Source: an uncultured Nitrospiraceae bacterium (GTDB lineage Bacteria > Nitrospirota > Thermodesulfovibrionia > Thermodesulfovibrionales > Thermodesulfovibrionaceae). From it: a stretch of DNA of 40,590 bases. Of the stretch, positions 334 through 18,731 are shown in pieces. How positions within the stretch are numbered: position 1 is the first letter of the stretch; each line of letters begins with the position of its first letter. The position numbers and the translations under genes are program-made. The stretch lies in assembly GCA_937139565.1 (NCBI GenBank), contig CAKZQH010000023.1:1-40590 (forward strand). Direction: 5' to 3'. A model generated the notes under the pieces. That model was not told where the DNA came from. It was given only the letters and a program-made list of their open reading frames with translations, and did not search any database.

Positions 334-2289
<1,956 letters not shown>

Positions 2290-2365
2290 GATTATTCAAA
2301 TATCAAAAACGCACAAAAAATAGCCCGAGGATAACAAAAATTATCTCTAAAACATGAGAAACTTC

Positions 2366-2707
2366 TCAAACTCCTCTCCACTCCCAATCTTTCCCTTTCA
2401 CAAGAAGAATAGGTTTAGGATCCTCTTCTGCATCTTCAAAAAAAAGACTTTTGAGCACATAGTAGAGATTGATTCCTGATGAGGTAAATCTTTTCTTAAA
2501 AATCACACATGCTTCTTTGATTGACAATTTAAGTTTCAAAACAGCATAAAGGTCGTAAAAATCTTTCTTTGTGCAGCGCTGAGAGATGGCTTTTATTCTT
2601 TCAGCAGTAATATCTTTAAAATCTGCAACTGGAACTTTTCGCCATGATATTGTTGGATAGATGAGAGGATGGCTGTAATAAAGAAAGGACAATTTAACCC
2701 TATTCAC
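2366..2707 (-). CDS. AbiEii-like nucleotidyltransferase, C-terminal half of a split gene
   Basis: This 113-aa product matches the second half of AbiEii/AbiGii-type nucleotidyltransferase toxins. It has VKLSFLYYSHPLIYP, then ADFKDITAERIKAISQR and KKDFYDLYAVLK, the usual helical segment with conserved K-K-D-F-x-D-L. It has no nucleotidyltransferase active site of its own; that lies in the upstream fragment at 2704-2913. The GTG start overlaps the TGA of that fragment (GTGA), so coupled translation of two pieces is possible. A frameshift with loss of a short middle section is equally likely. Whether the two pieces assemble into an active enzyme cannot be told from sequence. Confidence 0.7.
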   Translation of the reverse strand: MNRVKLSFLYYSHPLIYPTISWRKVPVADFKDITAERIKAISQRCTKKDFYDLYAVLKLKLSIKEACVIFKKRFTSSGINLYYVLKSLFFEDAEEDPKPILLVKGKDWEWRGV

Positions 2708-2913
2708 AGTGCACTGAGCCTTCCTGCAACAAATTTGTCAAGGATGACATCTGCATTGAATATTCTTTGAGAGAAAAAATCTAAATCAAGCGATTTTCTA
2801 TGCCCAAGTTGTAACGCCAGAGCAGTTCCACCAGCTAAATAGAAATCATTAAGTTTATCTGATAGTTGATCGATTACTTCGATCGCATTTTCTGGTGATA
2901 CATTTTCAAACAT
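2704..2913 (-). CDS. AbiEii-like nucleotidyltransferase, N-terminal half of a split gene
   Basis: A 69-aa product carries the nucleotidyltransferase signature of the AbiEii family: FYLAGGTALALQLGHRKSLD followed by LDFF, with the GG-T motif and the D-x-D metal-binding pair. Family members continue without a break through a linker into the half encoded at 2366-2707. Here a stop follows GRLSAL, and part of the linker is missing on comparison with the family layout. The two fragments together give about 180 residues, short for a complete AbiEii-type toxin. The gene begins inside the 3' end of the DUF6922-like gene, the arrangement expected of an antitoxin-toxin pair. Confidence 0.7.
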   Translation of the reverse strand: MFENVSPENAIEVIDQLSDKLNDFYLAGGTALALQLGHRKSLDLDFFSQRIFNADVILDKFVAGRLSAL

Positions 2914-3182
2914 GCAATCTCCTTTAAAGGAATTCCAAAATACACTGCCCAGAATTTTGCTGTTTTAGGCATTAATCCACGTCTTTTTTTAATTACCTCT
3001 TTGATCTTTTCATCTGGATATATCGCCCTCAGGGTAGCAACATCTTTTTCATCGCCAAAATCAAGCACCCGTGCAATAATGTAACTTGAGTTTTTTTCAA
3101 GATCGATATCTTCTGCATCCCAGAATAGGGTTGGGTTAAATATCTCCCTTACATTAACCTTCTTAGTTCGACTGTTTTTCAT
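2874..3182 (-). CDS. DUF6922-like small protein, candidate antitoxin partner of AbiEii-like gene
   Basis: A 102-aa protein with the pattern LFWDAEDIDLEKNSSYIIAR, then VLDFGDEKDVATLRAIYPDE, KIKEVIKKRR and PKTAKFWAVYFGIP. I recognise this as the DUF6922-like family that is commonly encoded directly upstream of AbiEii-type nucleotidyltransferases, where it is thought to act as the antitoxin side. Its 3' end overlaps the downstream toxin fragment by 40 nt. It starts 26 nt after the cas6 stop, in the same orientation, so it is probably read from the cas promoter. The antitoxin role is inferred from context. Confidence 0.65.
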   Translation of the reverse strand: MKNSRTKKVNVREIFNPTLFWDAEDIDLEKNSSYIIARVLDFGDEKDVATLRAIYPDEKIKEVIKKRRGLMPKTAKFWAVYFGIPLKEIACLKMYHQKMRSK

Positions 3183-3207
3183 AACTAATTATATCATTTT
3201 GAATTCT

Positions 3208-3879
3208 TTAACTTGAATTCTTTAACGTTTTTACCGTCCCAAAACCCCTCGACACTGACTTACCAATGCCCCAGTAATCAGGAATTTCAAAATTCACTGA
3301 GAATGTGCCTAAAAACCCGAGCATCGGAGTGCCTTTGAGTCTTGTCTGAATCTCTTTTAACCTGCCAATGTTTGCCTTAATCGGCTCAGGTACAGTGTAT
3401 CCAAGGCTTTTCGAGATTGAGATGATGTTGCCTATAAGAATGCTTTCGAGGAGTTTTTTTCTTTTTGCCCATGTACCGAGTTTCTGGTATCTCTCATAAT
3501 TCTTTTCATTCAATGCAAGCCAGGGGGTGAGGAAGGTGTAGGTGATTTGATCCGAGGTTAATGAAAAGGTTGAAGTATAACTCTCCATTCCTTTGGTTAA
3601 GATATCCTGCCATTTACCACTCAGATTTATTCTCTTTAAATTAAAAAAAATCTTTTCAAGAATATCTAAACCTTCATTGAATCCTATCAACATGCATGCG
3701 TTGTCTACAATTTTATACTGCACACATGGATAACGATATACAAAGCCACTTTCCATATGATTGTGAGCATAAGGATTATCCCAAAATAAATTACCAAGAT
3801 ATCCTCTTATTTTTTCGGCATCACTTTTATTTAGATCAGAGTCTAAGCTAAGAATAAGTTTTAATATCCTTACCTCCAT
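3208..3879 (-). CDS. cas6: CRISPR pre-crRNA endoribonuclease Cas6
   Basis: A 223-aa RAMP protein that should cut the repeat transcript to release crRNAs for both effector complexes. The glycine-rich loop near the C-terminus (GIGKSVSRGFGTV, about residues 203-215) is the Cas6/RAMP signature, preceded by GFLGTFSVNFEIPDYW. The sequence is divergent from textbook Cas6, and I cannot name the catalytic histidine with confidence; H39 and H41 in YAHNHME are candidates. It sits 4 nt after cas3 and is the only Cas6 candidate in the locus. It might be classed in databases as a Cas6-like protein of unknown subgroup. Confidence 0.75.
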   Translation of the reverse strand: MEVRILKLILSLDSDLNKSDAEKIRGYLGNLFWDNPYAHNHMESGFVYRYPCVQYKIVDNACMLIGFNEGLDILEKIFFNLKRINLSGKWQDILTKGMESYTSTFSLTSDQITYTFLTPWLALNEKNYERYQKLGTWAKRKKLLESILIGNIISISKSLGYTVPEPIKANIGRLKEIQTRLKGTPMLGFLGTFSVNFEIPDYWGIGKSVSRGFGTVKTLKNSS

Positions 3880-6220: not shown

Positions 6221-6914
6221 TTTCTAATTGGTAATACTCCTTTACATTAGCCTTGATAGTTTTCCCATCAGGCTCAAAGATTACATCATCATATTTCTCT
6301 ATTATTCTTTCACTATTCATTTTAATTGGCATCTTCTCTTTGAAGTATCTCTTATTCATCTCAATTTCAATCCCATTTTCTCTTAAATTCGTTTCCTTAA
6401 TGGGTGTGTGAATCTCTACTAATTCAGTACCTGACTTTTGCTCAAAATCAAACACACCAACATATTTAAAGTCTGCAATTAGCTCACTTAATCCAAGAGA
6501 GACTGTGTATGTGCATTTATGTTCTTTCAAAAGTTTTTCTAGTCGCTCAAATACCTCTGGGACTTCGTGAGCAAAATAAATCCTGAAACAGGGGTTTTTT
6601 AAAAATTCAGTTAGAATTTGGGTTCTCGGCTCATGGTATTGACTACTATAAAGAGTCCAGTGTCCATCTTTTGTGTTTATAAGATTTATTCCCATCCTGA
6701 CCTTTTTAACTGGATTTATGATCCTGAGTGCAATTTTGCATCTATCCATTGAAAAAACTTTTAAATATTCATCTTTTCCACTTCCATAAATAGCACCTAA
6801 AATACCTGCTATAGTAAAAGGTGGGGGAAAGGAAAAAGTAAGAGGGGACGAAGTTGTATAAAATTTACGGAAATGACCGTAATCTCCCCATATGTCAAAT
6901 ACTAGAACCTTCAT
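6195..6914 (-). CDS. cas5: Cascade subunit Cas5 (type I-B)
   Basis: A 239-aa RAMP-fold Cas5 that caps the 5' handle of the crRNA in Cascade. The N-terminus VFDIWGDYGHFRKFYTTSSP and the FPPPFTIAGILGAIYG segment are the family signature of the Cas5h/Cas5b type. The start at 6914 follows a weak AGAGG-like ribosome site and gives the normal N-terminal strand. It lies 11 nt after cas7 and overlaps cas3, in the fixed I-B order cas8b-cas7-cas5-cas3. Confidence 0.92.
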   Translation of the reverse strand: MKVLVFDIWGDYGHFRKFYTTSSPLTFSFPPPFTIAGILGAIYGSGKDEYLKVFSMDRCKIALRIINPVKKVRMGINLINTKDGHWTLYSSQYHEPRTQILTEFLKNPCFRIYFAHEVPEVFERLEKLLKEHKCTYTVSLGLSELIADFKYVGVFDFEQKSGTELVEIHTPIKETNLRENGIEIEMNKRYFKEKMPIKMNSERIIEKYDDVIFEPDGKTIKANVKEYYQLENGEIINFF

Positions 6915-6925
6915 TGACTACCTCT

Positions 6926-7840
6926 TTAAAAAGTAAGGCTCTCAACAGGTAAGCCAGACAATGCATCCTGTATCGAAACACTCTGCCCATCTTTTATAAA
7001 AGCAATCCTCTCATCTACCTTGAGGCTAATCTTTTCAATTCTGTCTGTATGGTCATTCAGTGCTTTAATAAGATTTGTGATATCAATTTTGATCTCTGAA
7101 ATGTCCCGAATTGCCTCGTGAGTTTTTTCTGCCTGTAAAGCTATGCGTTTATCTAACTCTCCGATAAAGTAATTTCCTTCTTTGTATTTTACCTGCATAA
7201 GAAGTCTTGGCATCTGACCAAATTTGGAGCCAGAGATGAGGTTTTTAGTTCCATTCCACATAGCCTCAAGCATTAAGGAGATATCATCCTCGGTTAATTC
7301 AAGTTTTTGTATTAAAGCAGCATTTTCATTTACCACCCCATAAAAAACTATGAGGGAATATGGCAGGATATACCTTTCGGTAAATGTGCCCTGCCTACGC
7401 TCTACTGCTGATGGCATAACAGTAGTCCCTTTTATGTAAGTAAGGTCAACCTTATGTAGAGACCTACCGTATTTGAACTGAACTGGTCCTGTTAATGCCA
7501 TTGTTTGATCTTTAACTGCCGTCGTGGCGCCAAATAATCTTATGTCAATACAATTTTTTATCACCTCTACTGGATTATCATTAAAATCTTTTAACCTATC
7601 TTCTTTTGTTTTTAGACTGCCCTTTTCATCTCGTATCTCCCGAATAAAGATATCTTTCTTTTTATACTCATAGAGATAGTCCCTTATAGTCCTTTTTAAC
7701 CTCACATCCGTAACAATATTCACTCCTGTTTCCTCATCAATTCTTGGTTTATTCTCATCCACCGGATCGCCATTAGGATTTGCATCTGTTACATCATAAA
7801 GAAATAAAATCTCTGAACGATTTTTTACTAACTCTGACAT
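6926..7840 (-). CDS. cas7: Cascade backbone subunit Cas7 (Csh2-type, I-B)
   Basis: Cas7/Csh2 (304 aa) polymerises along the crRNA to form the Cascade backbone. The N-terminus has ILFLYDVTDANPNGDPVDEN, the most recognisable Cas7 motif, followed by DEETGVNIVTDVRLKRTIRD. The gene has a good ribosome site (GGAGG) upstream of ATG 7840 and sits 3 nt after csh1. Its length and motifs are ordinary for the family. Confidence 0.95.
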   Translation of the reverse strand: MSELVKNRSEILFLYDVTDANPNGDPVDENKPRIDEETGVNIVTDVRLKRTIRDYLYEYKKKDIFIREIRDEKGSLKTKEDRLKDFNDNPVEVIKNCIDIRLFGATTAVKDQTMALTGPVQFKYGRSLHKVDLTYIKGTTVMPSAVERRQGTFTERYILPYSLIVFYGVVNENAALIQKLELTEDDISLMLEAMWNGTKNLISGSKFGQMPRLLMQVKYKEGNYFIGELDKRIALQAEKTHEAIRDISEIKIDITNLIKALNDHTDRIEKISLKVDERIAFIKDGQSVSIQDALSGLPVESLTF

Positions 7841-9736: not shown

Positions 9737-10606
9737 TCACTCAAAATACCCATAGCCAATTGCAGTCTTTGCACCTATGCCGTGCTCTTTTAATGCCTCT
9801 TTTAACCATTCTGAAGCCTTCTCCAATAAATTCTTATCCTTTGACGCTAAATAGAATTTAAATTTTGTTCTTTCTACTGTCAAAAACTTTATTGGCACAG
9901 GTGATTGCCAATCTGCTGGTGGTTCTTTACCTGAATAATAATCAGAATAATGAGGTGTCATTACATCAATCTTTAAATTTATCGTTCCTACTGGATAGGC
10001 ATCAAAGAATATGACTTTGCCTTGATTCTCCTGTGTCCCAAAGATTTCACAAAAATTGGGGTCCTGTATTGCTTTATCTTCATCTCCTTCAAAATAATTT
10101 ATTATCACCCAATGCCTTGTAACTCCTTTTATTGCGCTTCCTGGAATGTATGGAATACCGTAAATATGATGGAGTGTCATTGATGTTTCCTGTGGATGCG
10201 ATGCACCAAGACCTATAACCATGCGCCAATAAAGCATTAATTCAAATTCTTCAAATCGCATCCCATTGTTTTCAAGCATCATTTTAAGCTGAGTGTTACG
10301 TCCTTCAAGGTATTCAAGAATTTTTTCATCTTTAATTAATTTATTAATCTCATTTATTATAAGTCCAAGGGATTTATCCTTATTTTCACTCTCATCGTTT
10401 CTGCGTGCGTAAGGAATTAACTTACTAAAAATAAGAGCAGGATTTATAGTAAAATCAGCTGAACGATATTCCCATTCTATCCTTTCTTCTTTTTTCTTTT
10501 TTTCATTCCACCTATATTTTCCAATTTTCTTTATTACTTGAAAAAGTATAGCTGACAGATCACTAGGATTGTAAAATTCATAGTTAGTTTCATATCTATT
10601 TTTCAT
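9737..10606 (-). CDS. cmr6: Type III-B RAMP protein Cmr6
   Basis: Cmr6 is the Cas7-like subunit at the 3' end of the crRNA in the Cmr complex. I place the start at ATG 10606 (MKNRYETNYEF) because a GGAG site lies 6 nt upstream; a longer frame starting with TTG is less likely. This gives 289 aa. Signature segments are LYWRMVIGLGASHPQETSMT, then YGIPYIPGSAIKGVTRHW, and a C-terminal GIGAKTAIGYGYFE glycine loop. It follows cmr5 by one base and ends the III-B gene block. Confidence 0.93.
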   Translation of the reverse strand: MKNRYETNYEFYNPSDLSAILFQVIKKIGKYRWNEKKKKEERIEWEYRSADFTINPALIFSKLIPYARRNDESENKDKSLGLIINEINKLIKDEKILEYLEGRNTQLKMMLENNGMRFEEFELMLYWRMVIGLGASHPQETSMTLHHIYGIPYIPGSAIKGVTRHWVIINYFEGDEDKAIQDPNFCEIFGTQENQGKVIFFDAYPVGTINLKIDVMTPHYSDYYSGKEPPADWQSPVPIKFLTVERTKFKFYLASKDKNLLEKASEWLKEALKEHGIGAKTAIGYGYFE

Positions 10607-10607
10607 T

Positions 10608-11021
10608 CTACTCTCCTTCAATCATTCCTTCTGCAAATCTTTTAAGCCAGTTGAAAAATGTTAATATCTCCTGTGTAACATATCTATATTCGGCAGAAGA
10701 AAGAGAAATAACCCATTCGGTAAGGTCTTTTCCTCCCTCCATCTTTATTCTTGATGTAGAATCGCTCTTAAGATAGTCTGTTATTTGTTGATAAAGAAGG
10801 TCATAAGCGTTCCCATTACTCTTTTTCGATAAAATAAAAGCAAGGGTCTGCCCAAGCCCATTACTTAAAATCATCTGAGGAATTTTTCTGGTATGGGAGC
10901 GATATTCTTTTTGTTTTTTACTGTCCCCTTTAAATCTTTCCAATGCCTCATTAACGCATTTATAAGCAAAATCTGCCCTTCCTCTTTCAAGTTTATTTAT
11001 TAAAGTCTCTTTTTCACTCAT
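10608..11021 (-). CDS. cmr5: Type III-B small subunit Cmr5
   Basis: A 137-aa helical protein with the Cmr5 pattern: an N-terminal ERGRADFAYKCVNEAL helix, RSHTRKIPQMILSNGLGQTL in the middle, and a C-terminal helix EWVISLSSAEYRYVTQE. Cmr5 lines the target RNA groove of the complex. The ATG lies within the 3' end of cmr4 (8-nt overlap) behind a GGAGG site, so its translation is coupled. Confidence 0.92.
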   Translation of the reverse strand: MSEKETLINKLERGRADFAYKCVNEALERFKGDSKKQKEYRSHTRKIPQMILSNGLGQTLAFILSKKSNGNAYDLLYQQITDYLKSDSTSRIKMEGGKDLTEWVISLSSAEYRYVTQEILTFFNWLKRFAEGMIEGE

Positions 11022-12090
11022 CTTTGCCCTCCAACAATTTTATTCTTACCATACCTTTGCCAATTGTCTGGTTACCACCAAGATGAATCACCTCGGGGAT
11101 ACCTTTTTTGAAAAACTCAATAACATTCTGTGCCTCATTATCAGGACTATCATTTTGAAGAACACCTTTCTTTTCCTTTGTATCAACTCTTAAGGGTGTT
11201 GCCATTGCAATTGAATAAAGAATGGTATCCTGCGGAAGATATTCCTCTGTCCAGAGTGCCCCTGATTCAACTGTCCCTGTCTCTGATGAGATCTTCGTCC
11301 TTGTAATAACCTCAGTAGAAATATTTACAAAGTCAGTAAAGTCATCATCCGAGAGAATGACAAGATCTTTTTTTAGTTTGTCCTTCCAGAAGTTATAAGC
11401 AGAGTCATCAGGAAAAATCATTTTTGAAAGTTTATTAACGATTTTAGTCGTTTCTTCGCTTTCAGTAACCTCAAAAGTGAACTCTTCAAGGACTAATTTC
11501 CCAGACACTAAGAGGTTGGTTTGTCTTGGTACAGTATTTTTAATATTTGTCAGATTCCAATCCTTAACTTCTTCTTCATTTCCTGATATTTTCATATCCT
11601 CAATAAATCTATTCAATACCATTGGACATGTAATCCAGGCAAAGACACCTTTCAGGGATTTAACAGGAAAAAGCAAAATCCTTGCATCTGTAAAGGCAAT
11701 CGCACCTGCATGCTCGTCGCCATCTTCTGGACCAAAGATAAGATGTATAAATCTATCGTAATTGATTAATTCTTCATCTTTTATATTTTTTTTAGTTACT
11801 TCCTGGCCTTTTTCGTTTTTCTCTTTCCACTGTTCTTCAGCATCTGGATATTTTTCCTTCAATCTTCTAGAAATTTCACAATCAATAAGCTTTCTTTTTC
11901 CACCAATTTTTTCCACAAGTGATTCAAATGCCTCTCTTATACAACCTTTAAGTCCTGAGCCCTCAATCTTTGGAAACTTTGTATGTCTTTCCCTCTGTAT
12001 GGGAAGGTCAACAATACCAAGCTCACTACCACTTCCTGCATGAATGGGAGTCTCTGCTATTAAGAAAAATGGCTGAAATTTACGAAACAT
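11014..12090 (-). CDS. cmr4: Type III-B backbone ribonuclease Cmr4
   Basis: Cmr4 is the repeated Cas7-like backbone subunit that cuts target RNA every six nucleotides. The start MFRKFQPFFLIAETPIHAGS is preceded by a near-perfect AAGGAGG site. D28 in GIVDLPIQRERHT is in the position of the catalytic aspartate known in Cmr4, so target cleavage should be intact. KIEGSGLKGCIREAFE is the typical RAMP glycine motif. Length (358 aa) is slightly above average because of charged insertions around residues 80-105. It directly follows the CARF gene. Confidence 0.94.
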   Translation of the reverse strand: MFRKFQPFFLIAETPIHAGSGSELGIVDLPIQRERHTKFPKIEGSGLKGCIREAFESLVEKIGGKRKLIDCEISRRLKEKYPDAEEQWKEKNEKGQEVTKKNIKDEELINYDRFIHLIFGPEDGDEHAGAIAFTDARILLFPVKSLKGVFAWITCPMVLNRFIEDMKISGNEEEVKDWNLTNIKNTVPRQTNLLVSGKLVLEEFTFEVTESEETTKIVNKLSKMIFPDDSAYNFWKDKLKKDLVILSDDDFTDFVNISTEVITRTKISSETGTVESGALWTEEYLPQDTILYSIAMATPLRVDTKEKKGVLQNDSPDNEAQNVIEFFKKGIPEVIHLGGNQTIGKGMVRIKLLEGKDE

Positions 12091-12091
12091 T

Positions 12092-12925
12092 TTATACCTC
12101 CTTTTTCTTCACAAAATTATAATAAGTTAGACCTTTTTCTGTGATTCTAAGCCCATAATATTTACCAGATTCATCCTCTTCAATCTCTACAAGTTGATAG
12201 ATCCTTAATCTCTCTACTTCATTTCCATATTGTTCTAAGAGTTTATTACACTCTCCACCACTTCTTAGCTTTTTATCTGACAGTTCATTAAGCAAATCAA
12301 TCTCATTACCTTTTGGCAGATAGAATAGTTTTGGCATTAAAATTATATCCTGAAATTCTTCGTGGATGTAATATACATTACAGTCAGTTAAAAACCCTGC
12401 AAGTGCTGATACAACTACATGGGGCTTGAATCCGCCTGTAGGATTCATATAGACTTCATAACCCTCTTCCTTCTTCTTTTTCACAAGATAAAGTAACCTA
12501 TCAAGAATAGTATTTATATCCTTTGAAAATTGTTCTTTTGCATAATTTGTATCATAATTTTTTTCTTCCCAGAAATATCCTGAAACTTGAGCTGGTGTAT
12601 ATAGACTGTATCCATTTTCTTTAAAATATCTTTCAATTGTGACTCTACAGATTTCATTTGAGGCTGTCTTTGTTCCTAATAGATAGACAGAAATATCTTC
12701 GGGGTCTTTGTCCTTAACTATTTTTTTAAAAGAATTCACTTCAGCAGAGCCTCTTAATGGATCTTTCAGTAAGAAACTGTAGATCTCATTTAGAAAACTC
12801 ATGTCGTCAAGATAAGCGCTCCATCTCTCTTCATCAGAAAATGGAATATCTTTTATCCTATCATTTATCTTTTTAAAATTACTCAAAAGCGAATTTCCAA
12901 TATTTATTATGTGAAATTCTTTCAT
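12092..12925 (-). CDS. CARF-winged-helix protein (APE2256-like; possible ring nuclease)
   Basis: A 277-aa protein with an N-terminal CARF domain, the sensor of cyclic oligoadenylate made by Cas10. The motif NPTGGFKP (161-168) with ALAGFL and VYYIHEEFQDIILMPKLFYL is typical of the APE2256-type CARF family. No HEPN R-x4-6-H motif, nuclease or membrane segment follows. The C-terminal region (about 215-277), ending in YYGLRITEKGLTYYNF, looks like a winged helix. CARF-wHTH proteins include Crn1 ring nucleases, which degrade the messenger, and Csa3-type regulators. K167 in GGFK is at the position of the lysine implicated in Crn1. A messenger-degrading off-switch for the neighbouring CARF-RelE toxin is my preferred reading, by inference only. 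Confidence 0.75.
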   Translation of the reverse strand: MKEFHIINIGNSLLSNFKKINDRIKDIPFSDEERWSAYLDDMSFLNEIYSFLLKDPLRGSAEVNSFKKIVKDKDPEDISVYLLGTKTASNEICRVTIERYFKENGYSLYTPAQVSGYFWEEKNYDTNYAKEQFSKDINTILDRLLYLVKKKKEEGYEVYMNPTGGFKPHVVVSALAGFLTDCNVYYIHEEFQDIILMPKLFYLPKGNEIDLLNELSDKKLRSGGECNKLLEQYGNEVERLRIYQLVEIEEDESGKYYGLRITEKGLTYYNFVKKKEV

Positions 12926-12927
12926 AA

Positions 12928-14121
12928 TTACTTCCTCTCTTTTTCAATTCTATAAGATTTGTAGTCATCAGTAGCGTCTATTTTTCCACGGTTATTTTCA
13001 AAATCTTTTACATACTCGTTCTCAACATTATGAACATCACTTCCTATTCTCAATAATCCTATGTAAATGTCGATTTCTTTGGTTGCATATCTTGTGTTCC
13101 GCTCATTAGTTGTGTATAAGATTCTTATCTGAAGATTTTCCTCCTTATGTTTAAAAACTTTAAAATCTTTAAAATCAACACCGGATAACTTATGGTTCAG
13201 ATCAGGATCTTCTGGATTTTGTGAAATTCTTCTTTTCAGTTCTATAAATGACTTCTCAGCAATTCTTTTATAGTTTGGATCACTTTCTATATAACTTTTT
13301 GCTATTTCTGAAATATAGAAAATTGAATATCTCTGTTTGTATCTTTCCCACAATACGATCCCCAATGGGTTTAGAGCATACATGTCATCAGCCTTTTCTA
13401 ATAGACTCATGACATCATTATAATCATCTTCATTCCCACCCTTTATCTCAGACACTTCCTCCATTTCAAGCCTTGCAAAGAAGGCTTCATGTTTCTCAAA
13501 TAAGTCCCATTTTAAGTCGATTGGAATATAAGGGATTTCGATCAATGTGTTAGTATTTTCAAATATGTAGTAGAGTGGGCATCTACTGACCTGTCCTAAG
13601 ATCGTCAAATAAGGTATTGTTGCCTTGTAGCCTCCTGTTATGTTGATAACGACATTTCCAAAGTATTCATTTGTTATGCTATAAATTTTGTTTATCAGGT
13701 TTTGCATCCCAGTCTTAAATCTGTTGCTATCTTTTACTTGTAAATCTTCAACTCCTTCTAAATAAATATTCATTTTCTCAAATTTTTGATTTAGATTTTC
13801 TTTTATAATTTCACCTGCAAGTTTACTTAAAATAGTATCCGAGGCAAGAAGATAAATTTCAAAATTATCTTTATAAAACTCCTTCAATTTCTCAATGCTC
13901 TTTATTTCAGCAGAGGCATTTGAAATAAACCTTTTGTCATTATGTAGCCAATTGTTTATTTCTCTTTTTAAGTAATTTACTCTATATTGCTCATCCTTAT
14001 ATTGATTTGAATCCCTATCCCTTAAGTCATCAAAATAATTTTTAAATGTGTAATCCTTTTTGTTTGCCTCCATATAATTTTCAAATATTGATGTTCCAAC
14101 CATTGTTATAATTTTCTTCAC
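12928..14121 (-). CDS. CARF-RelE fusion, Cami1-like cOA-activated mRNA interferase
   Basis: The N-terminal CARF domain (about 1-205 of the longest frame) shows ITMVGTSIFENYM, LLASDTILSK and NITGGYKATIPYL. A linker rich in acidic residues leads to a C-terminal RelE-fold domain (about 300-385) with HKLSGVDFKDFKVFKHKEEN, then LQIRILYTT, IYIGLL and HNVENEYVKDF. CARF-RelE proteins are known as Cami1, which cleave mRNA in the ribosomal A site when bound to cyclic oligoadenylate. I choose the GTG at 14121 as start because a GGAGGTG site lies 5 nt upstream and CARF proteins start close to KKIITMVGTS; a longer ATG frame begins at 14139. The gene sits between cmr3 and the second CARF gene inside the III-B operon. 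Confidence 0.8.
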   Translation of the reverse strand: MKKIITMVGTSIFENYMEANKKDYTFKNYFDDLRDRDSNQYKDEQYRVNYLKREINNWLHNDKRFISNASAEIKSIEKLKEFYKDNFEIYLLASDTILSKLAGEIIKENLNQKFEKMNIYLEGVEDLQVKDSNRFKTGMQNLINKIYSITNEYFGNVVINITGGYKATIPYLTILGQVSRCPLYYIFENTNTLIEIPYIPIDLKWDLFEKHEAFFARLEMEEVSEIKGGNEDDYNDVMSLLEKADDMYALNPLGIVLWERYKQRYSIFYISEIAKSYIESDPNYKRIAEKSFIELKRRISQNPEDPDLNHKLSGVDFKDFKVFKHKEENLQIRILYTTNERNTRYATKEIDIYIGLLRIGSDVHNVENEYVKDFENNRGKIDATDDYKSYRIEKERK

Positions 14122-14125
14122 AATT

Positions 14126-15196
14126 TCACCTCCCCACAAAACCTAATCCAAACCCTTCTTCGGGATTAATATCTGACATGTTTTTTAAATGAAATGTTTC
14201 TTTAATCTTTGAAAACTCTGATGAATCAAGTATCTCAAAATAATATACACTTCCTGCTGGAACTGCTTTTCTTAATGGTTTTGGTCTTTTGCTGGCAATA
14301 TCCCAACCACCAATATGTAATGGTTTCCCGATGCAAGCACCTATTAGTTTTAATTTTATTCCATTAAATTCGCCTTCATAGTTATCATTTATCCAATCTG
14401 GTAACCATCCCTTTTTAAATATCGCTGGGGTTGCAAGATAGATTTTGAATAATCTATTCTCAAGGTTAAAATCCATATTATTAAATTTTTGCAATTTATC
14501 TTCTATCCTTCTGAACTTAGCACCTTTACTTTCTCCCCCTAGTTGAAGTATGCCTACATCAGGGATATCATTTACTCCTTCAATTTTTACTACAATTGAC
14601 ACTTTATCATTAAGCCTTATCATGGGTATCCTGTACAGATGTCCTTCTTTTGTTGTATTGGTGTTTCTCTCCCTTGCAATGCCTGTTTTGTTTTCATAGA
14701 GAAATAAACCCTCCTTGCAGGTAATCTTAAACTCAGACTTTTTATTGTTCAAATATTCTACTAATTCAATATCTGTTATCCATCCCTTTGCCTCTTCTGC
14801 TTTTCCCTTTGGTTTATGAATATGGATATAAGGAAGTGTATGGTCTGATATGAAAATTGACGGTTTTTCAATAAAATCAAGTCTTCTAAGTGTCGTATTT
14901 TCATCTACGATTAAATCAAGAGGTGCAGGGAAAAGAAGTTGATCATCATTTAATATAATTGGTCCTGTAACTTTAAGTGAGCCTTTATCTGTTTTAGTTC
15001 CGAGCTCGTCTTTGTATTTGCCAGCCCAAAACTCCTCCAGACCTCCTCTTTGAAAAATCAGAAAACTTCTGATTGCACCATAGATAGTTGATGGAGATGG
15101 TGGAAAAAAAACCTCTGCAAAGGTGTCTTCACCCATTGTGAATGGTTTTCCTGTTCTAAAAAATAAGGTATCAAGTGGAGTTATTTCTATCATCAT
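14126..15196 (-). CDS. cmr3: Type III-B RAMP protein Cmr3
   Basis: Cmr3 is the Cas5-like subunit that binds the crRNA 5' handle next to Cas10. The N-terminus ITPLDTLFFRTGKPF, then FFPPSPSTIYGAIRS, are diagnostic. KPLHIGGWDIASKRPKPLRK and the C-terminal EEGFGLGFVG glycine loop complete the family pattern. The start is ATG 15196, in a TAATG overlap with the cmr2 stop and behind AAGGAG; a GTG three codons upstream is less likely. The product is 356 aa. Confidence 0.94.
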   Translation of the reverse strand: MMIEITPLDTLFFRTGKPFTMGEDTFAEVFFPPSPSTIYGAIRSFLIFQRGGLEEFWAGKYKDELGTKTDKGSLKVTGPIILNDDQLLFPAPLDLIVDENTTLRRLDFIEKPSIFISDHTLPYIHIHKPKGKAEEAKGWITDIELVEYLNNKKSEFKITCKEGLFLYENKTGIARERNTNTTKEGHLYRIPMIRLNDKVSIVVKIEGVNDIPDVGILQLGGESKGAKFRRIEDKLQKFNNMDFNLENRLFKIYLATPAIFKKGWLPDWINDNYEGEFNGIKLKLIGACIGKPLHIGGWDIASKRPKPLRKAVPAGSVYYFEILDSSEFSKIKETFHLKNMSDINPEEGFGLGFVGR

Positions 15197-17859
15197 TAGA
15201 TACACTCCTTTTCTATGAAGGCTGATATTTCAATTATGTTCAGAAGATTATTTACATTTCCGCCCAGACTTTCCCAGAAAAGTTCTCTTAAAAAGTCATA
15301 ATGTGCCTTAATAAAACTCTCTTTCATCCATATTGGACCATTGTAGACCCTCTTAAGTACCCTTTTAAGTTGGCTATCAAAAATCCCTTGCGCTCCACTG
15401 TATCTCCCTTCCTCATAGATGAGTCTTGAAAAATCAATCCTTAAGTTATAGATAAACTTATCTGAAAAACGGGGTGAAGCATCTTTCCTCAAGCACTTAC
15501 CAAACTTTTGAAGATAGCTCAATACATCAATAATTTCCTCATTACTTGCTTTAAATCTCCAATTACTTAACCCTATTCTTTCCCCTCCCGAATGCTTCAC
15601 AAGTGCAATGCAGAATGCATCCTTATCCTTAATCCCTTTAGATTGCTTTTCAACCTCTCTTAGCCTTTTAAAAACAATTCTAAGAGGCATCTTGTAATGG
15701 GCAATTACAACACCCATTGAAGCAGTTGCATTCTTTCCCATTGTAAGAAGCCATCTTCTATCTTTTTCTACAAAACCAGTGGTATTTTCCCAGTCTACTT
15801 CAATTCTGCCATTTTCAATTTTTATGTGCCCTGAAAATGCTGCACGCAATTTTCTCATTACAGGAAATAAATCCCTCAGGTTTACAAAAGCAAGGACATC
15901 ATCTCCACCTGAATATACAAGTTTCCCAAGGTGTTCCTCTTCAACTATTTTTCTTACAAATTCCACACTATAATTTCTTAAAGCGTGAGAAATAGCAGAA
16001 TGAATGGCTGGAGTAAGTATTTTCTGAGAAGATGCATTAATCAGCACATCTTTAAAATCTCCTGCCAAATTTTTCCATACTTCAGAATTATACGCAAATT
16101 CTATTGAAGGAAGATTTTCACCAGAAAGCCATTTTCCCATATTATCTCCATCAAGAAGGATTAAAGCATAATACGGGTTGGGATTTCCTATCTTTTTTGT
16201 CAATGCTGAGAGCTTGTTTTTTAACTCATTTAGCTCTTCATCTGTTATGTCAATATCAAGTTCCTTCTTAAAAAACTCCTTCCTTAAATTCTCTTTAAAA
16301 AACCACTCGCCTTCAAGATTTTTGATATTTTCAAATTTTGATTTTATTTTTGGCAAAGGATTAACAAAAGAGAACTTACAATTATGGTTGTCACATATTT
16401 CCCTAAATCTCTCAACATATTCATTAAATTCTTCTTTTCCATCCTCAAGAGCTTTCTCTTTAAAATCTGACAAAGCAACCTCTGCAGTGGATGGAAAACT
16501 GAGTTCTATATTTTTAATCTTTTCTCTAAAATACTCCTCAAATCCTCTTTTTACAAAACACAATCCACAAAGCCCTTCCTTTTTACTTATGAATTTCCCA
16601 ACTTTTAAACTTCCTGTGTTAGCAATTATTATTGCCTCTTTTTCACCACAGATTGAGCATTTTTTACCTTCTTCTTCTATCTGATTGAATGTCCGCAAAT
16701 TTTTCCTTGAACCCATTGACTTTTCAAGGGCTGTGTAAAGAAGCTGGTAAAGAAGTCCTATATTGGCCTTGTGTTTCCCCTTAGAGTTTGCAACCCCCCA
16801 TAAATCTTCAAGTTTTTTAATCTCTTCACCACTGACAAAGGTTGATAAATCGGAAAAGTCTACATCCTTGTCTCCTTTTCTCCAGGGAATGGCAACCCAA
16901 TAGATTTCAGGAAAATCTTGAATATGTGATCTTATTTTTTCGTTCCTGGGAATATTGAATTCTTTAAATACAATCTCTGCAATTTCATTCCATTTATCAT
17001 TGACCTTTTGTTTTACAGCATCGGCTACTTTTGCAATTTTATCATGCTCTGTTTCAGGGATAATTGCAACAAACCTATTTGGAATGGTTGGTGTATCTAC
17101 CTGTGATGAGACAGAATTTTTTACTGCCAATCCAATATTTTCCAGATGCCAATCCATAAGGGGTTGTGAGAATAAGTCTGGATAGATTATTGCTGTTGGT
17201 CCATATTTATCAACTATTTCAGTTATACCCATAAATGTAAGATATGAAAGAATAAAGCTACCATTGAACAAATCCATCGCCTTTCTTGCTTGTGAGATAA
17301 ATGACTGCACAGGACCAATCTTAAAGAGAAATAGGGAGTTGTTCTGTAACAAAGTGTTATTTAATAAACTGGCATTTATTGCTGATGAAATCTTAATGTG
17401 TTCCCATATTGAATGGTCTGGAATGCGAGTATCTGCTGGAATTAATGGTAAAAATTTGCTGTATGGTTTATCCTTTGTTTTCTCAATAAGTTCTTCAAGG
17501 AGACCCCGCCAGAGAAAGAAAAATTTTTTCTTATCATCATAATTTGCAATTTTATTTTCTATATCTTTGAAGACATCTTTTACAATTTCTTCTACTTCCT
17601 CAATCTTAGGGCAGGTGATGGTTACCTTTTCATCACTTAAAGGATGCCTAATTTCAGTAAATTCCTGTTTTATATCTTTTGGAAGCAAACTTCTTTCCAT
17701 ACAGGAGGCAATAATATCAGAACCACTTGCCTCTTGAATGTTAGATATTCCAAAGATTTCAGCATAATCTTGAGCCCTGCTTTCGTGAGTTTTTATATCG
17801 AACGGTTTATCAACGGGGTCGTGAAGGAACCTTTTGAGTAATAAATCAAAATCACTCAT
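15196..17859 (-). CDS. cmr2: Cas10/Cmr2, type III-B signature protein with intact GGDD
   Basis: An 887-aa Cas10. The N-terminal part keeps the HD-type residues H13-D14 (FLHDPVDKP) and H25 (THESRA), and the conserved IPDHSIWEH segment (146-154). The first palm domain has GPVQSFISQARKAMD. A zinc site is formed by C401-x2-C404 and C431-x2-C434. The second palm has LILLDGDNMGKWL and the catalytic GGDD at 651-654 (VYSGGDDVLAF). With GGDD intact it should synthesise cyclic oligoadenylate when target RNA is bound, which explains the two CARF genes downstream. It overlaps cmr1 by 4 nt. Confidence 0.96.
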   Translation of the reverse strand: MSDFDLLLKRFLHDPVDKPFDIKTHESRAQDYAEIFGISNIQEASGSDIIASCMERSLLPKDIKQEFTEIRHPLSDEKVTITCPKIEEVEEIVKDVFKDIENKIANYDDKKKFFFLWRGLLEELIEKTKDKPYSKFLPLIPADTRIPDHSIWEHIKISSAINASLLNNTLLQNNSLFLFKIGPVQSFISQARKAMDLFNGSFILSYLTFMGITEIVDKYGPTAIIYPDLFSQPLMDWHLENIGLAVKNSVSSQVDTPTIPNRFVAIIPETEHDKIAKVADAVKQKVNDKWNEIAEIVFKEFNIPRNEKIRSHIQDFPEIYWVAIPWRKGDKDVDFSDLSTFVSGEEIKKLEDLWGVANSKGKHKANIGLLYQLLYTALEKSMGSRKNLRTFNQIEEEGKKCSICGEKEAIIIANTGSLKVGKFISKKEGLCGLCFVKRGFEEYFREKIKNIELSFPSTAEVALSDFKEKALEDGKEEFNEYVERFREICDNHNCKFSFVNPLPKIKSKFENIKNLEGEWFFKENLRKEFFKKELDIDITDEELNELKNKLSALTKKIGNPNPYYALILLDGDNMGKWLSGENLPSIEFAYNSEVWKNLAGDFKDVLINASSQKILTPAIHSAISHALRNYSVEFVRKIVEEEHLGKLVYSGGDDVLAFVNLRDLFPVMRKLRAAFSGHIKIENGRIEVDWENTTGFVEKDRRWLLTMGKNATASMGVVIAHYKMPLRIVFKRLREVEKQSKGIKDKDAFCIALVKHSGGERIGLSNWRFKASNEEIIDVLSYLQKFGKCLRKDASPRFSDKFIYNLRIDFSRLIYEEGRYSGAQGIFDSQLKRVLKRVYNGPIWMKESFIKAHYDFLRELFWESLGGNVNNLLNIIEISAFIEKECI

Positions 17860-18731
17860 AGCAACTCCTTTATAAATTTTTTCTGTTTTTCATAATCCCA
17901 TCGGGGATAAACTGATGGAAATGCAGAATTCAAAATAGTTATGATTGGTCTATAGAATTTATCAGCTCTTAACACAGATACATAGACAGGAGATGCCATT
18001 CTTGGAGATGCATTACCCAAGGAAGGATCACACCATTTATGGCTTGCTTCACCAATTACTTTTAATATTTCATCGAAAGAAGAAAAATCTTTTCCTAACA
18101 AAATCTCTCTAATAAATGGATAATTAGAAATTATCGTAGTTTTTATTTTGATCTTGCCATATTTGAGCTCGTATTTAGGATTAATCTGATTTAAGCTTGT
18201 CAATATACCGTTTAGCAATTCATCTCTCTTAACCACTTCCTGCATCCCATCATATTCAATGCTCCCAAACCCTCTCCTTGACCTTTTTCCAAAGCCTCCT
18301 AATGTGAATGTAATAAAAATCAGGCTCTCTAATATATTTTTTAACTCTTCAGGAAATGTGAATTCTATTCTAAAAGATGTGTCAGGTTTAATTGCACTAA
18401 GCACAAAACTTTTTCTACATCGGGATTCACAGAATTTACAATTGTTTTTTGAGTGATGTGGCAATGGCTGATACTTAAATACACCATCATTTCCAATTTG
18501 TTCCTTTAAAATCATCTGTACCTTACTTTTTCCTTCACCCTCTCCAGTTCCACCAAACATTTCTGCTTCTTCTTTTCTTAATTTCTCTATATTATCCTCT
18601 GCCCTTATTGCCCGCCACCAGAATCGCATCATACCTTTAAACTCAAATGGTCTTAACTCAGGCGTATTTCCATCTGCTCCATACATAAACATGGGGGTAA
18701 TCACCTTACAGCTTAGTTTCAACCTATACAC
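17856..18731 (-). CDS. cmr1: Type III-B RAMP protein Cmr1
   Basis: Cmr1 (291 aa) caps the 3' side of the Cmr complex and helps engage target RNA. The N-terminal CKVITPMFMYGADGNTPELR is followed by PFEFKGMMRFWWRAI, the RAMP signature of this subunit. KRSRRGFGSIEYDG is a glycine loop. A CxxC-type pair (NCKFCESRC) suggests a local metal site. The GTG start at 18731 has a TGAGGTGAG ribosome site upstream and matches where Cmr1 homologues begin. It is the first gene of the whole minus-strand CRISPR locus. Confidence 0.94.
   Translation of the reverse strand: MYRLKLSCKVITPMFMYGADGNTPELRPFEFKGMMRFWWRAIRAEDNIEKLRKEEAEMFGGTGEGEGKSKVQMILKEQIGNDGVFKYQPLPHHSKNNCKFCESRCRKSFVLSAIKPDTSFRIEFTFPEELKNILESLIFITFTLGGFGKRSRRGFGSIEYDGMQEVVKRDELLNGILTSLNQINPKYELKYGKIKIKTTIISNYPFIREILLGKDFSSFDEILKVIGEASHKWCDPSLGNASPRMASPVYVSVLRADKFYRPIITILNSAFPSVYPRWDYEKQKKFIKELL

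Follow-up and report, generated by a model that had tools for sequence, protein, structure and literature searches.

The type III-B CRISPR operon described here probably produces, together with its Cmr complex, a Cami1-like effector and a ring nuclease of the winged-helix (wHTH) subtype of Crn1, although ligand, activities and regulation are inferred. Support for an effector plus ring nuclease co-transcribed with Cmr comes from three agreeing lines: the comparison of structures, the conservation of catalytic residues and the genes found nearby. The operon lies in what we call the window, the whole stretch of 40,590 nucleotides that was analysed, which is one contig of the 1.99-Mb genome of a thermophilic, uncultured Nitrospiraceae bacterium. 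Both proteins belong to known families and nothing about them is categorically new; their arrangement is unusual but understandable. If our explanation is right, a sensor, a translation-stopping effector and a means of signal removal are carried on one transcript, and the locus offers a thermophilic bacterial wHTH-type Crn1 that could be assayed beside its natural effector.

The type III-B operon is complete and lies on the minus strand, in the order cmr1-cas10-cmr3-[CARF-RelE]-[CARF-wHTH]-cmr4-cmr5-cmr6:

17856-18731, minus strand: cmr1 (TIGR01894, 65.7 bits)
15196-17859, minus strand: cas10/cmr2 (TIGR02577, 276 bits; GGDD at residue 651, HD at residue 13)
14126-15205, minus strand: cmr3 (PF09700, 3.4e-70)
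12928-14121, minus strand: CARF7-wHTH-RelE effector gene, 397 aa, GTG start (PADLOC PDLC01936, CARF7--CARF_RelE, 381 bits; best Foldseek match Cami1)
12092-12925, minus strand: CARF7-wHTH gene, 277 aa, predicted Crn1-type ring nuclease (Sis0811/SSO1393 by hmmsearch of the PDB and by Foldseek)
11014-12090, minus strand: cmr4 (TIGR02580, 251 bits)
10608-11021, minus strand: cmr5 (TIGR01881, 93.5 bits)
9737-10621, minus strand: cmr6 (from its place after cmr5 and homology to relatives' cmr6, including Cmr6 as annotated on plasmids of Runella and Allochromatium)

The original prediction had placed both CARF genes between cmr3 and cmr4, made together with the complex, and had taken the GGDD motif of Cas10 to be intact; both statements are borne out. 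All of these genes share one strand. From cmr3 through the two CARF genes to cmr4 the gaps measure no more than 1-4 nt, which makes co-transcription of the four very likely. The gene coordinates given earlier were also right. The open reading frame program starts the 397-aa protein at TTG 14139, whereas we prefer GTG 14121, a few bases past the cmr3 stop, because homologues begin at the same residue and the ribosome-binding site GGGGAGGTG precedes it. These two proteins are the only PF09651 members found in the whole genome, and no HEPN protein is encoded in the cmr operon. On the 3' side of cmr6 follow the I-B operon genes cas8b, cas7, cas5 and cas3, and the open reading frames beyond them are read as cas6, cas1, cas2 and cas4; every cas gene lies on the minus strand. 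Past the cas4 end, the contig opens inside a CRISPR array (positions 1-109 of the window), with the 37-nt repeat GTTTCAATCCTTGTTTTTATGGAAGTTGGTCTTAGAC at 1-37 and 73-109, 72 nt apart.

The effector can be divided into three parts:

13510-14121, minus strand: CARF domain, residues 1-204 (PF09651; conserved S11, E72 and K166)
14089-14091, 13906-13908 and 13624-13626, minus strand: codons of the ring-nuclease residues S11, E72 and K166, in that order
13330-13509, minus strand: winged-helix linker, residues 205-264 (AlphaFold2 secondary structure, pLDDT 62-93; also aligned to Cami1 by hmmsearch)
12931-13329, minus strand: RelE-like domain, here called type A, residues 265-397 (PDLC01936 match, structure model, alignments A6 and A7)

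Its match to PF09651 (98.6 bits, 3.5e-28) marks a CARF7-family sensor, and the PADLOC CARF7--CARF_RelE model spans the full length of the protein. An AlphaFold2 model, built from an alignment of six sequences only, reached a mean pLDDT of 84, and its top four Foldseek matches are Cami1 chains (8phb and 8phj; E 6.5e-18 to 1e-15, 416-427 columns), in keeping with the proposal that the protein is Cami1-like. The query TM score is 0.62 to cA4-bound Cami1 (8phj_X) and 0.49 to Sis0811, which has only the CARF and wHTH parts; since the score is higher with Cami1 than with the RelE-less protein, the C-terminal domain seems to add to the match. The CARF domain, the winged-helix linker and the overall Cami1 architecture are thus present (PF09651 and PADLOC; Foldseek). 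Cami1 of Allochromatium vinosum likewise combines a CARF7 sensor, a middle winged helix and a C-terminal RelE-like domain in a type III-B operon. However, it is only about 22% identical to the effector despite being its best full-length structural match, belongs to a different PADLOC family (PDLC01939, CARF_RelE_like, instead of PDLC01936), has a RelE domain that cannot be aligned by profile with that of the effector, and is encoded before cmr1 instead of between cmr3 and cmr4.

We read the C-terminus as RelE-like from its predicted structure, its PADLOC assignment and the spacing of its motifs. In the AlphaFold2 model, this part runs strand-helix-helix-strand-strand-strand-helix, the order of RelE toxins, and the last 133 residues alone match PDLC01936 at positions 255-356 (E 3e-11). 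Among six type A homologues (alignments A6 and A7), K324, H325, K326, R333, H364 and Y370 are among the invariant residues. In E. coli RelE, whose sequence we confirmed against PDB 4v7k before using it as a yardstick, R61, R81 and Y87 are the active residues, with K52 and K54 nearby (PMC2807027). The spacing of the K-x-K...R residues (9 and 7) and of the H/R...Y pair (6) is equal in the two proteins; read from this spacing and not from a significant alignment, the general-acid position held by R81 in RelE would be a histidine in the effector. Pfam and NCBIfam scans did not detect a RelE domain in the effector. With hhalign, the RelE piece gave no significant match to E. coli RelE or to the corresponding domain of Cami1, and only chance matches came back when the PDB was searched with an HMM of this piece. 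The structural comparison with RelE and Cami1 that had been proposed earlier gives a full-length fold closest to Cami1 and a RelE-like order of strands and helices. The sequence link of the type A domain to RelE passes through another form, type B: the two profiles (A7 versus A8) match with E 9e-5 and 59% probability, and the invariant arginine of type B falls in register with RelE R61, in a weak alignment only. A PD-(D/E)xK nuclease was also considered for the C-terminus, since other proteins encoded in the same position seem to have one, and was rejected on the absence of the D...ExK motif from type A sequences.

This divergence leaves some room for a domain that is RelE-shaped but has another RNA or protein target and does not cut mRNA at the ribosome. 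The failure of type A to align by profile with Cami1 or RelE, and its replacement of type B on closely related CARF sensors, would fit such a change of target, which we nevertheless regard as unlikely: the full-length fold match is Cami1, and the invariant basic residues and the His and Tyr stand at the expected places.

The neighbouring 277-aa protein is probably a Crn1-type ring nuclease of the wHTH subtype, as its sequence and predicted structure suggest and as had been put forward as a possibility before. Its features are:

12314-12925, minus strand: CARF domain (S12, E62 and K167 invariant in 11/11 homologues)
12890-12892, 12740-12742 and 12425-12427, minus strand: codons of S12, E62 and K167, in that order
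12095-12313, minus strand: C-terminal winged helix, residues 205-277 (in the model, helices 207-214, 224-242 and 263-276, strands 246-250 and 256-261)

The protein matches PF09651 (7.5e-26) and combines a CARF fold, a C-terminal wHTH and the catalytic Ser and Lys, without a fused effector domain. When an HMM built from eight homologues was used to search the PDB, Sis0811 came first (8e-24), followed by SSO1393 (2e-21). The ten best Foldseek matches of the structure model (pLDDT 83) are chains of the same two proteins over the full length (E 1e-15 to 1e-13), well ahead of Cami1 and of Csa3, which ranks below Cami1 too. The top entries include Sis0811 structures whose titles name S12A and S12G/K169G, and the residues mutated according to these titles, S12 and K169, align with S12 and K167 of the 277-aa protein. 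Sso1393 and Sis0811 are stand-alone ring nucleases with an extra C-terminal wHTH, which is auto-inhibitory in Sis0811 (PMC10018336). Together (PDB 3qyf and 7pq2), they resemble the 277-aa protein in domain composition, catalytic Ser and Lys and fold, and Sis0811 is close to it in size (275 aa); they differ in being archaeal, with about 25% identity over the structure alignment and winged-helix parts that align loosely by sequence. Recent tandem duplication as the origin of the two CARF genes was considered and rejected on the low (23-29%) identity between the families and their separate PADLOC subfamilies.

Csa3 also joins a CARF domain to a wHTH and binds cA4, and differs in being a transcription factor. 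The 277-aa protein could accordingly be a cA4-responsive regulator of the cas operon of this kind instead of a remover of cA4, a reading encouraged by its C-terminal winged helix and by the Csa3 structures in the fold search (E 3e-5 to 8e-5). We consider it quite improbable, as Csa3 falls far behind Sis0811/SSO1393 (query TM 0.36-0.37 versus 0.58-0.62), the Csa3 model TIGR01884 does not match the protein, the Ser, Glu and Lys of ring nucleases are invariant in all 11 homologues, and SSO1393 and Sis0811 are themselves wHTH proteins and yet ring nucleases (PMC10018336). Least likely, and by our estimate very improbable, is that the 277-aa protein binds cA4 uncut, or pairs with the CARF-RelE protein in mixed dimers, and so serves as a sponge or antitoxin-like partner. 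CARF proteins act as dimers and both of these are CARF7 proteins made side by side, but identity between members of the two families is low (23-29%, roughly one residue in four), the homologues accompany unrelated effectors, and the catalytic residues are intact.

The company kept by the 277-aa family bears on its predicted role as a ring nuclease. Members are found after cmr6 (L043, L045 in genome G007, L052, L059 and G010), in loci shared with a CARF9-HEPN (Csx1) protein (G008, G011 and G021), and next to a CARF5 protein (G012 and a second locus of G010). Because the family accompanies several effector types, an enzyme acting on the shared messenger fits better than a RelE-specific partner. 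Within the phylum the family is rare, with matches in 6 of 296 genomes, one of them marginal. In the five other loci with both families, the 277-aa homologue follows cmr6, and direct adjacency of the CARF-RelE and CARF-wHTH genes is found only in the window genome. Conservation thus concerns the slot after cmr3 and the fact that the genes belong to the operon, not their lying side by side.

The effector too carries ring-nuclease residues, which probably makes the off-switch double. S11 is kept in 48 of its 50 relatives (the other two have gaps), and E72 and K166 in all 50; the Ser and Lys of both window proteins align with S12 and K169 of Sis0811. In SyCsm6, a CARF7-RelE protein of Synechocystis, S12, E70 and K167 have been linked to the breakdown of cA4, which the K167A mutant no longer cuts (PMC9676260); Cami1 is also listed with ring-nuclease activity (PMC12409355). 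The effector is thus probably self-limiting, as reported for these two proteins. SyCsm6 is like the effector in domain order, in the Ser, Glu and Lys and in degrading cA4 (PMC9676260), and differs in belonging to a type III-D operon and in having shown no RNase activity in vitro.

We propose that binding of the Cmr complex to a foreign transcript that matches would lead the palm domain of Cas10 to make a cyclic oligoadenylate, most likely cA4. Binding of cA4 to the CARF dimer of the 397-aa protein would then free the RelE domain, which would cut mRNA in the ribosomal A site and halt translation, both steps being modelled on Cami1. The 277-aa protein, acting as a slow ring nuclease of the Crn1 type, would bind cA4 in its own CARF dimer and then cut it, so that all cA4 effectors of the cell would receive less signal. 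This cutting is probably held back by the winged helix of the 277-aa protein, as reported for Sis0811, and the effector probably cuts its own activator too, through S11, E72 and K166.

The original prediction that the system lacks a HEPN effector holds for the cmr operon, and no CARF9-HEPN relative was found in the genome. The same genome carries a Csm-type (III-A) operon on contig C76 (L108:18-5852), with a GGDD-bearing cas10 followed by csm2-csm5-like genes; the contig starts 17 bases before this cas10. On contig C59 (L110:1486-4095), a CARF5 protein, a Can2/Card1-type CARF-nuclease (PF23400, PF09002) and Csx3 (Crn3 family) are encoded in a row that adjoins cas1- and cas2-like open reading frames and reads as a second set of cyclic-oligoadenylate effectors with an off-switch. 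Given this second type III system and the Can2/Card1-Csx3 cluster, the cell does not depend on the CARF-RelE effector alone. Should both Cas10 proteins make cA4, there would be cross-talk between the two systems: the 277-aa protein and Csx3 would act for both, and the CARF-RelE protein would respond alongside the Card1-type nuclease.

The most interesting by-products of this analysis are a probable under-count of ring nucleases and a possible conserved effector socket after cmr3 with interchangeable ends. In one survey, ring nucleases were capped at 250 aa and 30% of Cami1 loci had an extrinsic ring nuclease (PMC12409355). This share may be too low, because the limit would leave out the present family of about 270-280 aa, and ring nucleases longer than 250 aa have probably been under-counted.

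Our own survey covered one genome per species (84,980 species) with alignment A3 as the query and yielded 61 loci; a contig scan with a single-protein query had given no match where the A3 query succeeded, and no relatives were found in the phage records searched. Of the 48 loci, from many phyla, that show both cmr3 and cmr4, 43 carry a CARF7 gene between the two, a count that describes the kin of the window protein and not all type III-B operons, because the loci were picked by similarity to it. The CARF7 gene directly follows cmr3 in 50 of 51 loci and overlaps it in 32. This position is thus a widespread arrangement with a varying effector domain: type A RelE ends occur in the window and five other loci, type B RelE ends in about 17, and PD-(D/E)xK-like ends, with a conserved E...D...ExK pattern and weak matches to PD-(D/E)xK families, in about 17. 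The CARF7-wHTH proteins of this last group look like nuclease-bearing effectors in the same slot. We found no name for this variant in the PADLOC models, Pfam models or literature searched, and it may still have been described.

In a quick tree of the sensor part, several forks of which are weak, the PD-(D/E)xK group needs one change, and type A ends replace type B ends on closely related CARF sensors. Type A requires at least two changes, forced by well-supported branches, which suggests that RelE ends were swapped or reshaped on more than one occasion. We tentatively suggest, while giving it less than an even chance, that the slot after cmr3 serves as a general socket: the CARF7-wHTH sensor would stay, while its effector end would be exchanged in evolution between RelE forms that can hardly be aligned and a PD-(D/E)xK-like nuclease annotated as RelE. 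The window would then hold a divergent RelE form, whose ribosomal target or cut site may differ from that of Cami1.

The PD-(D/E)xK-like loci are L069, L070, L074, L076-L078, L080, L082-L086, L088, L090, L092, L093, L096 and the Runella locus L041, and PADLOC models label their slot proteins CARF_RelE despite the E...D...ExK pattern. Further RelE-like ends in the slot (L064, L066, L079 and L030:9608-10855), several of them with IR[IL]LY ... FDHxxY, fit both the type A and the type B profiles poorly. Locus L033 contains partial copies of the cmr6 3' end away from the cmr operon, around 1569-3789, 6587-7717 and 16595-16795.
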